Source of the DNA: Catenulispora sp. EB89
Lineage (GTDB): Bacteria > Actinomycetota > Actinomycetes > Streptomycetales > Catenulisporaceae
DNA length: 64,000 bases
Direction of reading: 5' to 3'
Assembly (NCBI RefSeq): GCF_041261445.1
Contig: NZ_JBGCCU010000011.1
Coordinates: 124,001-188,000, forward strand
Shown: piece by piece, positions 35,725 to 39,551 of the stretch
Numbering within the stretch: the stretch's first letter is position 1
Layout: every line of letters begins with the position of its first letter
The notes under the pieces: generated by a model
Database searches by the model: none
What the model was told of the DNA's origin: nothing
The model's input: the letters and a program-made list of their open reading frames with translations, nothing else
Made by a program: the position numbers and the translations under genes

Positions 35725-36897
35725 TCAGTACGCCATCCCCATCGCCTCCCGCACCTGCGTCAACGTCGCCTCGGCCTCGACGGTCGCCCGCTCGGCCCCG
35801 CGCCGCAGGATCGCCGACAGGTACCCGTGCTCGCCCGCCAGCTGTTCGCGCCGGGCCCGGATCGGCCGCAGGTGCTCGTTCACCGCCTCGGTCGCGACGC
35901 GCTTGAGCGCCGAGGCGCCGCCGGAGCCGATCTGCTCGGCCACCGCCTGCGGCTCCTCGCCGCGGCACAGAGCGGTGATCAGCAGCAGGTTCGACACCTC
36001 GGGGCGGCCCGCGGGGTCGAAGGTGATCAGCCGGTCGGCGTCGGTCTTGAAGCCCTTGATGATGGCGGCGGTCTCGTCGGCGGTGGCCTGCAGCGGGATG
36101 GTGTTGCCGTGGCTCTTGCTCATCTTGTGCCCGTCGCTGCCCAGCACGGAGGGGGCGTCGGAGATCAGGGCCCTGGGTTCGGTGAACACCGGGGTGTAGC
36201 GGGTGTTGAAGCGGCGCGCGACGGTGCGGGTCACCTCCAGGTGTGGCAGCTGGTCCTTGCCGACCGGGACCAGGTCGGCGCGGCAGAACAGGATGTCGGC
36301 GGCCTGGTGCACCGGGTAGGTGAGCATCAGCGCGGACAGCGCGGGGCGGCCGGAGGCGGCGGCCTCGGCCTTGGTGGTGGGGTTGCGCTCCAGTTCCGGC
36401 ACGGAGATCAGGGACATCAGCGGCAGCAGCAGCTGGTTCAGGGCCGGGACGGCGGAGTGCGCGAACACGGTGCTGCGGGCCGGGTCCAGGCCGACGGCCA
36501 GGTAGTCGGCGACCAGGCCGAGGGCGAAGTCGGCGATCCGGGCCGAGGCGTCGCGGTCGGTGATCACCTGGTAGTCGGCGACCAGGACGAACAGCTCGGC
36601 GCCGGCGTCCTGCAGCCGGACCCGGTTGCGCAGCGAGCCCAGGTAGTGGCCCAGGTGCAGCGGGCCGGTGGGGCGGTCGCCGGTCAGGACCCTGATCTGC
36701 CGGGCGTCGCCGACCAGGTGCGCGGCCAGCTGGGCCTCGGTCAGGTACGCCGCGGGATCGGCCTGCGTGCCGTACGCGCCGTTTGTGTCGGCGGCGTTTC
36801 GGTCCCCTGACGCGGAAGGTGTGTCGTCGCTGTCACCAGAGGGAAAAACACGCGGCTGGTCGGAGGGATTGGTGGGTACGTCAAATGTGATGGTCAT
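35725..36897 (-). CDS. trpS: Tryptophanyl-tRNA synthetase
   Basis: 390-aa class I aminoacyl-tRNA synthetase that charges tRNA-Trp. The HIGH-like motif is PLHLGHY and the KMSKS motif is intact (GHKMSKSHGN). The Trp/adenylate-site segment GDRPTGPLHLGHY and LVPVGKDQLPHLEV are typical. The N-terminal 45 residues are an acidic, low-complexity extension not needed for catalysis. ATG 36897 follows GAGGAG. Expression appears controlled by an attenuator in the 185-base leader (36898-37082). In Streptomyces coelicolor an auxiliary indolmycin-resistant TrpRS is controlled by ribosome-mediated attenuation, so this may be the equivalent (inference). A second trpS may exist outside the window. Confidence 0.93.
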   Translation of the reverse strand: MTITFDVPTNPSDQPRVFPSGDSDDTPSASGDRNAADTNGAYGTQADPAAYLTEAQLAAHLVGDARQIRVLTGDRPTGPLHLGHYLGSLRNRVRLQDAGAELFVLVADYQVITDRDASARIADFALGLVADYLAVGLDPARSTVFAHSAVPALNQLLLPLMSLISVPELERNPTTKAEAAASGRPALSALMLTYPVHQAADILFCRADLVPVGKDQLPHLEVTRTVARRFNTRYTPVFTEPRALISDAPSVLGSDGHKMSKSHGNTIPLQATADETAAIIKGFKTDADRLITFDPAGRPEVSNLLLITALCRGEEPQAVAEQIGSGGASALKRVATEAVNEHLRPIRARREQLAGEHGYLSAILRRGAERATVEAEATLTQVREAMGMAY

Positions 36898-36978
36898 CGT
36901 CGTTCTCCTCGCGGGAATCTCACAGGGTCGGGGGTCCGCCGTCGTCGGCGTCCGGACCGCCCGGCCCCGTGTGCGGGG

Positions 36979-37016
36979 CGAGAACAACGAAGGCCGTCCG
37001 GATCGTCGGACGGCCT
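36979..37016 (-). terminator. Attenuator terminator in trpS leader
   Basis: Minus strand: perfect 10-bp arms AGGCCGTCCG / CGGACGGCCT with a 6-base loop, followed by the T-rich TCGTTGTTCT. It lies between the leader peptide and the trpS start. Its upstream arm can instead pair with 37039-37044. Confidence 0.75.
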
Positions 37017-37043
37017 GTCGGCGTGGGTGGCTGGGGAACCGTC

Positions 37044-37082
37044 CTAGGACGGACGCCAGCTGGCACACGGGAAGCTCTTCAC
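37044..37082 (-). CDS. trpS leader peptide with one Trp codon
   Basis: 12-codon ORF VKSFPCASWRPS, starting GTG at 37082, too short for ordinary gene calling. The Trp codon (37056-37058) lies just before the first pairing segment (ggacgg, 37047-37052). That segment can pair with 37039-37044 across the palindrome CCGTCCTAGGACGG, which contains the leader stop codon. There is no ribosome site, but a -10 box ends six bases before the GTG, so translation is likely leaderless. A ribosome stalled at Trp would cover segment 1 and let segment 2 pair with the terminator's first arm. Confidence 0.6.
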   Translation of the reverse strand: MKSFPCASWRPS

Positions 37083-37088
37083 GGGGTC

Positions 37089-37118
37089 AGGATATCAGGG
37101 CAGGCATGCCGGACTCAA
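37089..37118 (-). promoter_or_regulatory. Promoter of trpS leader transcript
   Basis: Minus strand TTGAGT (37113-37118), 18-base spacer, TATCCT (37089-37094), then six bases to the leader GTG. The -35 box overlaps the end of the upstream GNAT gene. Confidence 0.5.
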
Positions 37119-37618
37119 TCAAGCACCAGCCGGAACGTCAGCAGGCCCTTGCCGGGGGCGTACTCCCAGTCGCGTTCGGGGGTGCGCTGGAAACCCAGGC
37201 GCGCGTAGAGGCGCTGCGCGGCGGTCATCTCCGGCTTGGTCGACAGCACCAGCGCCGACCGTCCGGCCTCGCGGGTGCGGCGCACGCAGTCCTGGACCAG
37301 GGCCTGTCCGACGCCCTGGCCGCGGGCGAAGCCGGCGGTGGCGAGCATCCGGATCTCCGCCTCGTCGCCGGCGGCGATGTCGGCGAACTCGCTGCCGGCG
37401 ACGGTGTACACCGCGGCGCCGAGGATGCGGCCGGAGGCGTCCACGGCTATCAGCTGCCAGGCGCCGGGTGCGGCGTGCCGGGCGGCGGCGTCGGCCAGCC
37501 GCGGCAGGTAGGTCGGCTCGGCCAGGGATTCGTCGCGGTAGACGGCGGCGGTCAGCTCCCCGGTGGCGGCCAACTCGGCCGGAAGGGCTTCGCGAATGGT
37601 GATCTGCGTGATCTGCAC
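37115..37618 (-). CDS. GNAT family N-acetyltransferase
   Basis: 167-aa single-domain acetyltransferase. Motif A is IRMLATAGFARGQGVGQALV (acetyl-CoA loop RGQGVG), followed by a LYARLGFQRTPE motif B. A Trp-containing strand GAWQLIAVDASGRILGAAVY precedes motif A. Length is normal for the family. Substrate unknown. Same direction as trpS, but the trpS promoter lies at its end, so it is probably a separate unit. Confidence 0.85.
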   Translation of the reverse strand: MQITQITIREALPAELAATGELTAAVYRDESLAEPTYLPRLADAAARHAAPGAWQLIAVDASGRILGAAVYTVAGSEFADIAAGDEAEIRMLATAGFARGQGVGQALVQDCVRRTREAGRSALVLSTKPEMTAAQRLYARLGFQRTPERDWEYAPGKGLLTFRLVLD

Positions 37619-37919
37619 AGCGTTTGATTCTGCCCGAGGCCCGCCGCCGGTGGCCCGGCACGTGCCCGGTGCGGATTCGGCGCGGACGGGGCGGCGGTGT
37701 GGCGCCGCCGGGGCGCGCCGATGGCGCGGTGCGGGCGTGAAGTGTGCGGTGGGAGTGTGACAGTACGGCCACGATCAGGTGATCCGGGAGTGTGTGCGCC
37801 GTCACAGCGCCCCCGGATGGTCCTATGATCGCGCTCGGTAGTCGTTCGGAAGCCGTGCAGGCGGCGGCGGTGCGGATCAGGCCAACCAGACGTCCTGGTC
37901 CGCGATGGAGGTGGTCGCG
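37619..37919. other. Intergenic region without recognised gene
   Basis: 301 bases between the divergent GNAT and GGDEF-EAL genes. It must carry both promoters. No convincing -35/-10 pair, repeat or structured RNA was found. Confidence 0.4.
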
Positions 37920-39551
37920 GTGTCCGGTCAGAATTCGTCCACGGCGCACGCCGAGACGGCCGCGTCCCGGTCGTCGGCGTCGGCGCCGTGGTCCGACGAG
38001 CTCACGGGGCTGCCGAACCGGGCGATGCTGGGCCGGTGGCTGGAGGCCCGCACCGGCCCGCGGGCGCGCCCGGGGCAGCGGATCGGTTTGTGCAGCCTGG
38101 ACCTGGACGGGTTCCGGCAGATCAACGCGCTGCTCGGGTTCGGCGCCGGGGACCGGTTCCTGGCGGCGGTGGCGGCCCGGCTGCGGGCGGTGCTGGAGCC
38201 CGGCGGGCATCTGCTGGCGCGCACCGGCGGGGACGAGTTCGCGGTGCTCGTGGACTACAAGGACTTCCAGGATCACCAGGACCCCGCGGATCTCCAGGAC
38301 TTCCAGGACCACGGCGACGGGCCGGTCCCCGGATCCGGTCCCGGGGCCTCGTCGGGCGTGCCGGGTGTGCCGGGTGCGGAGTCGTCCGTGCTGCCGCCCG
38401 GCGCCGAGGGCCCGGCGCGACGCGGCCCCTCGTCCTCGGGACCCTCGGGGCCGTCGGGACTCTCGGCGCGGCCGATGGTCGACCGGGTCGCCGAGCGGGT
38501 GCTGGCGGCGCTGCGGGACCCGCTGCGGGTCGAGGGCCGGGACCTGACGGTCACCGCGTCGATCGGCGCGGTCGAGGCGCTGGCCGCGGCCTCGGCGCCG
38601 GAGGACCTGCTGCGCGCGGCCGACCTGGCGCTGTACTGGGCCAAGGGCGAGGGCCGGGACCGCTGGACCCTGTTCGACGCCGAGCGCGCCGGGGCCGACG
38701 TGGCCCGGTACCGGCTGGCCGCGGACCTGCCGGCGGCCGTGGAGTCCGGGCAGTTCTACTGCGAGTACCAGCCGATCGTGTCCCTCGCCGACGGCGCCGT
38801 CACCGGCGTGGAGGCGCTGGTGCGCTGGCGGCACCCGCGGTTCGGGATCGTGCCGCCGGACCGGTTCATCTCGCTGGCCGAGGACTCCGGGCTGATCGTG
38901 GAGCTGGGCCGGCGGATCCTGGCCGAGGCCTGCCAGGCGGCGGCGACGTGGCCGGACACCCCGGGACAGCCGGCGCCGCCGGTGTCGGTGAACGTCGCGG
39001 TGCGGCAATGCCGCGACCCGCGGCTGATGGGACACGTGCTGTCCGCGCTGGCCGACTCCGGGCTCGCACCGCAGCGGCTGCGGCTGGAGATCACCGAGTC
39101 GGCGCTGCTGCCCGGCGACGACGCCGCGCAGGCGACGCTGCGGGCCCTGGCCGACCGGGGCGTGGCGATCGCGGTCGACGACTTCGGGACCGGCTACTCG
39201 AACCTGTCGCATCTGCGGCGGCTGCCGGTGCACATCCTGAAGATCGACGGGACGTTCGTCGCCGGGCTGACGTCGGCGAACGGCGTGGGCAACGGCGCCG
39301 GCGCGGCCGCGGGGGCGGCGGCCGGAGCCACCGGGCCCTGCGGCGCCGACGAACAGATCATCGCCACGGTCACCGCGCTCGGACACGCGCTCGGGCTGAC
39401 GGTGACCGCCGAAGGCGTGGAGACCGCCGGGCAGCTGGAGGCGGTGCGGCGGCTCGGCGTCGACACCGGACAGGGCTGGCTGTTCTCCCGGGCGCTGCCC
39501 GCCGCCGGGATCAGGGACCTGTTGGCCCGCGGCGCACCGCTGGCGGCCTGA
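37920..39551 (+). CDS. Bifunctional GGDEF-EAL cyclic-di-GMP enzyme
   Basis: 543-aa cytoplasmic protein without membrane helices or sensor domain. GGDEF domain: entry DELTGLPNRAMLGRWL and intact RTGGDEFAVL (about residues 101-110). No RxxD inhibitory site is seen before it. A Gly/Pro/Asp-rich insert of about 72 residues (112-183) separates this motif from the rest of the domain (LTVTASIGAVEAL). EAL domain: GVEALVRWRHPRFGIVPPDR, LRLEITES, DDFGTGYSNL, ILKIDGTFV, all catalytic positions present, plus an Ala/Gly-rich insert before the last helices. Such proteins make or break c-di-GMP, which governs actinomycete development. GTG 37920 was preferred to ATG 37905 because GGAGGTGG lies in front of it. 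Confidence 0.88.
   Translation: MSGQNSSTAHAETAASRSSASAPWSDELTGLPNRAMLGRWLEARTGPRARPGQRIGLCSLDLDGFRQINALLGFGAGDRFLAAVAARLRAVLEPGGHLLARTGGDEFAVLVDYKDFQDHQDPADLQDFQDHGDGPVPGSGPGASSGVPGVPGAESSVLPPGAEGPARRGPSSSGPSGPSGLSARPMVDRVAERVLAALRDPLRVEGRDLTVTASIGAVEALAAASAPEDLLRAADLALYWAKGEGRDRWTLFDAERAGADVARYRLAADLPAAVESGQFYCEYQPIVSLADGAVTGVEALVRWRHPRFGIVPPDRFISLAEDSGLIVELGRRILAEACQAAATWPDTPGQPAPPVSVNVAVRQCRDPRLMGHVLSALADSGLAPQRLRLEITESALLPGDDAAQATLRALADRGVAIAVDDFGTGYSNLSHLRRLPVHILKIDGTFVAGLTSANGVGNGAGAAAGAAAGATGPCGADEQIIATVTALGHALGLTVTAEGVETAGQLEAVRRLGVDTGQGWLFSRALPAAGIRDLLARGAPLAA

Follow-up and report, generated by a model that had tools for sequence, protein, structure and literature searches.

What controls the second tryptophanyl-tRNA synthetase (TrpRS) gene of Catenulispora sp. 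EB89? In the 64-kb stretch of DNA analysed here (the window), this auxiliary gene, trpS, lies on the minus strand behind a promoter, a short open reading frame (ORF) that contains a Trp codon, and a terminator hairpin. A sequence-based note (the original prediction) had read this arrangement as a tryptophan attenuator. Our analysis supports that reading: the leader ORF, promoter spacing, alternative pairings and terminator are conserved across actinobacteria, and the leader is very likely to act as a ribosome-mediated transcription attenuator, responding to charged tRNA-Trp and regulating the auxiliary TrpRS, with a leaderless leader peptide.

Anatomy of the trpS leader

The promoter, GTG start, peptide, Trp codon and GGACGG/CCGTCC segments were found to the base where the original prediction had placed them. 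The leader frame reads GTG AAG AGC TTC CCG TGT GCC AGC TGG CGT CCG TCC TAG (37082-37044). Downstream of it, the 10-bp terminator with its T-rich tail was confirmed, as was the choice of partners proposed for positions 37039-37044, which can pair with 37047-37052 (segment 1) or with 37008-37013 (within segment 3). The latter pairing, GGACGGTT with GGCCGTCC, extends to 8 bp once G-U pairs are counted. The end of segment 2 lies 10 nt past the first stop-codon base, and segment 4 is the second arm of the terminator (Table 1).

The leader RNA is predicted to fold at -48.3 kcal/mol (z-score -4.35), with one of 200 dinucleotide shuffles as good. When both strands of the window were searched for the same anatomy, this site alone was recovered, and a leader covariance model gave a single match in the 11.9 Mb genome at E up to 0.1, namely this leader.

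The leader and its promoter spacing are conserved

Conservation was assessed in 110 loci of the window's TrpRS clade, being the best 30 and the best 80 matches of two homology searches; removal of eight upstream duplicates left 102 loci with distinct upstream sequence. A terminator-based scan, which required a terminator downstream of a short ORF with its Trp codon near the end and ignored promoters, detected leader and terminator in 65 of these 102 non-redundant loci. The original prediction had named a lack of conservation of leader ORF or hairpins among the results that would overturn it; both prove to be conserved. A second, promoter-based scan without a terminator criterion identified leaders at 76 of the 102 loci, all 65 included.

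In 63 of the 65 leaders (start codons picked by peptide length), the hexamer TANNNT stood upstream of the start codon with exactly 6 or 7 nt between them, and over offsets 0 to 40 only two other TANNNT hits occurred among them. For the two leaders without a hexamer at this distance, one is present by eye for another candidate start. A Shine-Dalgarno (SD)-like motif preceded the leader start in 1/65. Because the hexamer is so regularly placed and an SD-like motif so rare, the putatively leaderless arrangement is the rule of the family. Start codons were ATG (52), GTG (12) and TTG (1). The promoter counts concern the -10 element. These results indicate, at the level of sequence, that leaderless initiation is a conserved rule in this trpS clade, not a peculiarity of the window's copy.

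Clade members with this leader occur in Catenulispora, Streptomyces, Kitasatospora, Actinomadura, Nonomuraea and others. Among 391 genomes of the order, 77 carry a window-type TrpRS (counted as best E < 1e-100). The gene is present in eight of the ten Catenulispora genomes searched, and the leader recurs in all eight. One of the two genomes without the gene is 99% complete, so trpS is dispensable. Weak covariance-model matches within the genus (L148-L151) were not accepted as real; in L149, the only one inspected, nothing Trp-related was recognised.

This recurrence bears on a simpler explanation, namely that the hairpin does no more than terminate transcription of the upstream GNAT gene, that the peptide ORF is a side effect of high G+C content, and that trpS is transcribed from a constitutive promoter of its own. 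The GNAT gene does end close by, at 37115, some 100 bases upstream of the hairpin and with its stop overlapped by the leader -35, and a GNAT relative precedes the leader in 7/8 genus loci. However, leader, promoter spacing and alternative pairings are kept in dozens of other actinobacteria, and no GNAT match was found in three tested loci outside the genus (L015, L021 and L053). In locus L012 the leader is present but the available sequence shows no GNAT match, and in the window no TANNNT was found between the terminator and the trpS ATG. We consider it very unlikely that the hairpin serves the GNAT gene only.

The terminator might instead be worked by a different RNA sensor (a T-box, a riboswitch or a Trp-binding protein), with the peptide incidental. 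A search of positions 36800-37200 against Rfam returned only two sub-threshold matches, to unrelated families and with E up to 5, and no relevant match to a T-box or riboswitch family. The Trp codon, its spacing to segment 2 and the position of the stop are kept while the surrounding sequence varies, which leaves such a sensor a slimmer chance still.

A further possibility is that translation of trpS begins at an upstream GTG (37068) and yields a 447-aa protein, with the leader region coding for an N-terminal extension. No stop codon interrupts this frame between 37068 and trpS, the hairpin included, and in all eight genus loci the TrpRS match lies within an open frame of 439-456 aa. Against this, the distances from leader start to ATG (185, 185, 188, 187, 185, 185, 188 and 191 nt) show a differing frame in one of the eight, which is moderate evidence; the SD-like motif and start lie at the same place in genus relatives, and the extension adds no Pfam domain. 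Of the alternatives considered, an extended protein appears the least probable.

Segment 2 takes part in mutually exclusive helices

The 1:2 and 2:3 helices were scored in 72 loci. The 2:3 helix reached at least 6 bp in 68 of them (exceptions L046, L048, L095 and L114; in L048 the ORF continues past segment 2, so the scoring script searched the wrong place), and the 1:2 helix at least 5 bp in 69. Both helices draw on common segment-2 bases in 70/72 loci, making the 1:2, 2:3 and 3:4 pairings mutually exclusive. Mean helix scores were 21.5 for 1:2 and 20.6 for 2:3, compared with 11.1 and 11.2 after segment 2 had been shuffled.

Covariation, which the original prediction had proposed as a check, was found: segments 1 and 2 change jointly between lineages (CCGTCC/GGACGG versus CGCTCC/GGAGCG), and in L050, where they read CCGCC/GGCGG, segment 3 is changed accordingly. 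Paired with its own rather than the swapped segment 2, segment 1 scored 17.7 versus 11.1 and 23.8 versus 17.8.

The positions of these segments were set against assumed ribosome footprint lengths. In the window, the distances of 14 nt (Trp codon to segment 2) and 10 nt (stop codon to segment 2 end) would fit a stalled ribosome that frees segment 2 and a ribosome at the stop that masks it; in the 17 loci displayed, segment 2 extends to 10-12 nt past the first stop-codon base. In folding tests of the window's sequence, with cut points at the assumed footprint values, removal of the nucleotides under a ribosome at the Trp codon let 2:3 fold at -13.6 kcal/mol when segment 4 was absent, and removal of the stop-codon footprint let the terminator form.

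An outer stem probably accounts for the conserved Cys codon

RNAalifold recovered the terminator and part of 1:2 from 41 leaders, together with an outer stem, absent from the original prediction, linking the codons before Trp to the spacer that precedes the terminator. The columns of this stem were counted in the same 41 sequences from which it had been predicted, a bias in its favour; they had been picked by eye from 73 leader sequences to omit near-duplicates and doubtful ends. Paired cells made up 95.9%, 35 cells were changed on both sides (12.8 when shuffled), and the covariation score was 0.533 (0.291 when shuffled; at most 0.113 when slid by one to three columns). All three measures lay above all 500 shuffles. 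Two other measures did not exceed the shuffles: the number of pairs with two-sided change (4 versus 3.3) and the number of pair types (9 versus 9.3).

A Cys codon lies three residues before Trp in 48/65 leaders. The best helix of the outer region was sought in 63 of the 72 loci (the other nine, outside the terminator-based set, were skipped). Of these 63, 46 have that Cys, and in 43 of the 46 its codon was part of the helix, which makes the outer stem a simple explanation of the conserved Cys. In only 23/63 loci the helix beat at least 95% of its own shuffles. A preference for the own outer-stem partner was seen in two Streptomyces-type groups only, and not in the Kitasatospora, Catenulispora and Actinomadura groups.

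Two explanations at the level of the peptide were set aside. The conserved Cys might act as a nascent-peptide signal, but the outer stem explains the codon more simply. Selection on the leader peptide itself is at most a partial constraint: as raw counts, synonymous and nonsynonymous single-base differences in the codons before Trp stood at 147:564 (24 leaders) and 432:485 (30 leaders).

The single Trp codon is probably derived

Two Trp codons are present in 53 of the 65 leaders and one in 12. The single-Trp leaders are those of all eight Catenulispora, of Actinomadura L056 and L097, of Kitasatospora L081 and of Micropruina L105. In 11 of the 12, WRPS stands in place of the relatives' WWPS, the second Trp being replaced by Arg. 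The Arg codon is CGG in eight, a codon that preserves the GG of TGG within segment 1, and CGT in L004, L006 and L011. The single codon is probably a derived W-to-R change, with Arg taken as the derived state.

A model for attenuation

The observed anatomy, conservation and covariation suggest the following model for where transcription starts and ends, where the ribosome stands and how the leader responds to Trp. Judging from the -10 spacing, transcription would start within about one base of the leader GTG, and the ribosome would load straight onto the 5′ end. With ample Trp-tRNA, the ribosome would reach the stop codon, where its footprint would cover segment 2; segment 3 would pair with segment 4 and transcription would terminate. 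When Trp-tRNA is scarce or TrpRS inhibited, the ribosome would pause when the single Trp codon occupies its A site. Segment 2, which starts 14 nt downstream of the stalled codon, would then lie just clear of the footprint and could pair with segment 3 before segment 4 is made, allowing RNA polymerase to read on into trpS. If the leader were not translated, 1:2 and the outer stem would form and termination would be the default.

We tentatively raise the possibility, which we regard as doubtful, that this is a distinct type of leaderless attenuator. Here a long bipartite stem (1:2 plus the covarying outer stem of upstream leader codons, including the conserved Cys codon) and direct 5′-end loading would replace the SD start and the synchronising pause of the textbook switch, and one exactly placed Trp codon would suffice. 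If this were true, the natural W-to-R replacements (eight Catenulispora, two Actinomadura and one Kitasatospora) would form a natural series for testing how codon number sets gain.

Several observations weigh against attenuation at this locus. Theory ties high sensitivity to many regulatory codons (PMC1183508, in excerpt), and the window's leader has one Trp codon. With segment 4 present, the 3:4 hairpin is thermodynamically preferred even when the Trp footprint is removed; because the fully transcribed leader thus favours 3:4, the switch has to work kinetically, like classical attenuators. The GGAGCG version of segment 2 pairs equally well with either segment 1 (17.8 with the other, 17.7 with its own). 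The window's own outer stem is weak: it has 4 or 5 bp and fails to form two of the six consensus pairs. Finally, the promoter-based scan recognised no leader in 26/102 loci, where trpS must be expressed without the switch. In 25 of these 26 loci no second TrpRS was found in the genome. The exception, Streptomyces locus L057, has two further TrpRS matches in its genome and an SD-like AGGAG before its GTG.

Leader, enzyme clade and second synthetase

A second TrpRS, 35% identical to the window's trpS product, is encoded elsewhere in the window's genome, and by the same scan its gene has no Trp leader. Across the clade, 72 genomes were searched for a second TrpRS and L085, with only 29 nt of upstream sequence, was set aside. 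The leader was present in 40 of 41 genomes with a second TrpRS match versus 6 of 30 without (Fisher p 2.5e-12). After correction for the tree, only four independent pairs were left, two agreeing, none opposing and two not differing (p 0.5), so the association may reflect no more than shared descent. In this tree L035, whose upstream sequence duplicates that of L011, was scored as lacking a leader though it has one, and the six changes counted on the tree are about one too many. In six loci (L072, L088, L105, L106, L046 and L095) the window-clade TrpRS is the sole TrpRS match in the genome and still has a Trp leader upstream; the switch is therefore not confined to spare synthetases.

The indolmycin-contacting position equivalent to Bacillus His43 was placed through the aligned D-x-H-x-x-T motif, an assignment that we take to be correct. 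It is occupied by Gln in 101/101 distinct window-clade proteins (truncated L119, L124 and L132 omitted) and by His in 20/20 other TrpRS compared. His43 has been implicated in indolmycin sensitivity, and its change to Asn gives resistance (PMC4899734, in excerpt). From this residue alone the window's TrpRS would be predicted to resist indolmycin. The nearest solved structures by sequence are 2a4m_A ('Tryptophanyl-tRNA synthetase II') and 1yi8_B. The nearest named relative among the matches listed is the TrpRS of L035, from a Catenulispora metagenome-assembled genome (78% protein identity).

A window-clade trpS with leader MTSVPCRNWWRSS is carried by S. microflavus L113, a species that presumably belongs to the S. 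griseus group. SGR_3809 of S. griseus is an indolmycin-resistant auxiliary TrpRS (PMC6804068, in excerpt), which, by way of S. microflavus, possibly falls in the same clade as the window's enzyme.

The trpS locus

Table 1. Features of the trpS leader and its surroundings, in window coordinates.
Feature	Position	Strand	Basis
-35-like hexamer TTGAGT; overlaps stop of upstream GNAT gene	37113-37118	-	read from sequence
-10 hexamer TATCCT; 18-nt spacer from -35, then GACCCC (6 nt) to leader GTG	37089-37094	-	read from sequence
Leader peptide ORF, VKSFPCASWRPS; GTG start 37082-37080, stop TAG 37046-37044; putatively leaderless	37044-37082	-	sequence; 8/8 genus loci with this trpS
Outer stem, 5′ strand CGTG, overlapping Cys codon TGT; 37068-37064 in another register	37066-37069	-	folding, alignment
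Single regulatory Trp codon TGG, codon 9 of 12	37056-37058	-	14 nt from first base to segment 2
Segment 1, CCGTCC; end of leader ORF	37047-37052	-	sequence and pairing scores
Segment 2, GGACGGTT; partner of segment 1 or segment 3	37037-37044	-	pairing scores; core GGACGG 37044-37039
Outer stem, 3′ strand CACG; alternative register 37025-37021	37022-37025	-	folding, alignment
Segment 3, GGCCGTCC; within 5′ arm of terminator, partner of segment 2	37008-37015	-	pairing scores
Intrinsic terminator hairpin, 10 bp, 6-nt loop; arms AGGCCGTCCG (37016-37007) and CGGACGGCCT (37000-36991, segment 4)	36991-37016	-	sequence, folding
T-rich tail, TCGTTGTTCT	36981-36990	-	read from sequence
Shine-Dalgarno-like GAGGAG of trpS	36905-36910	-	read from sequence
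Second (auxiliary) tryptophanyl-tRNA synthetase gene trpS, 390 aa, ATG start	35725-36897	-	TIGR00233, 240.5 bits (cut-off 176.75)
GNAT acetyltransferase gene; stop overlapping leader -35	37115-37618	-	domain search; precedes leader in 7/8 genus loci
Divergent gene, GGDEF-EAL protein	37905-39551	+	domain search

Upstream of the GNAT gene, 81 bp at 37751-37831 are identical in L012, where they lie directly before the leader. The TrpRS of L012 is only about 78% identical despite these identical 81 bp, and its available sequence holds no GNAT match. The shared segment may reflect a conserved element, a deletion and transfer in the recent past, or a draft contig that is chimeric.

Comparison with known attenuators

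We found no literature on the leader of this clade, or joining Catenulispora with an attenuator, in a search that covered few subscription papers. A 2010 study by Vecchione and Sello is said, by its title, to describe attenuation of S. coelicolor trpRS1, a gene whose counterpart in S. lividans we take to be SLIV_21110. Upstream of this S. lividans trpS lies TrpL2, MMTRTCTQLWRAA, a leaderless peptide of 13 aa with one Trp codon and competing hairpins (PMC8079986, in excerpt). The window's leader resembles TrpL2 in its putatively leaderless form, single Trp codon, competing hairpins and trpS target. It differs in its T-rich tail: no U-rich stretch is reported after TrpL2 (PMC8079986, in excerpt). 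In the original prediction, a single Trp codon with leaderless initiation had been taken for a minimal version of such a switch. The arrangement is there, but leaderless initiation appears to be the family rule, and TrpL2 provides a published precedent.

The kinship drawn to the auxiliary TrpRS of S. coelicolor likewise holds in part: the kind of switch is the same, but the window's trpS forms a separate clade in the tree. Its product is 36-40% identical to the TrpL2-type proteins compared (36% for the full proteins of L136 and L138, 38-40% for the others), which are relatives of the TrpL2-bearing gene, not the S. lividans or S. coelicolor proteins themselves, and which have His where the window's clade has Gln. 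Among 21 further TrpRS loci outside the window's clade, seven have a leaderless-type Trp leader by the same scan; together with L136 and L138 these seven make up the nine rows of the TrpL2-type clade in the tree. A TrpL2-type leader occurs in 4/391 genomes of the order, with the same segment order (TGGCGGGCCGCC / GGCGGCC / GGCCGCC). Covariance model R1, built only from window-clade leaders, also finds the TrpL2-type-clade leaders L160 and L161 (E 1.9e-6 and 4.7e-6 per genome). The two groups of leaders may be homologous or may have converged.

In S. lividans the -10 element is TAnnnT and 17% of transcripts are leaderless (PMC8079986, in excerpt). In mycobacteria, leaderless initiation requires an ATG or GTG at the 5′ end and needs nothing further (PMC4633059, in excerpt). 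The trp operons of Corynebacterium and Streptomyces have attenuators, and one was predicted for trpS2 of S. avermitilis (PMC1262725, in excerpt). As far as the excerpt goes, these share with the window's leader the logic of Trp codons, terminator and antiterminator hairpins and conserved complementary triples; the trp-operon leaders have double or triple Trp codons, whereas the window's has one. A script saw no Trp leader upstream of trpE in the window's genome, which gave one trpE match. In L163, at about position 1500 on the minus strand, a leaderless-type ORF, MTSSNQNWWPAS, and then a hairpin lie by eye upstream of an ORF resembling anthranilate synthase.

Leaderless polycysteine attenuators of mycobacteria are reportedly the subject of a 2020 study by Canestrari; by its title, a leaderless short ORF acts as the sensor there too, but with cysteine codons and other genes. 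In the trpS leader, an RNA stem offers an explanation for the conservation of codons other than Trp, and versions with one or two Trp codons in frames that are otherwise alike could be used to test directly the theory of codon-number sensitivity (PMC1183508, in excerpt). The switch is of a known kind, and this well-conserved case brings Trp attenuation to another TrpRS clade, distant from the first.
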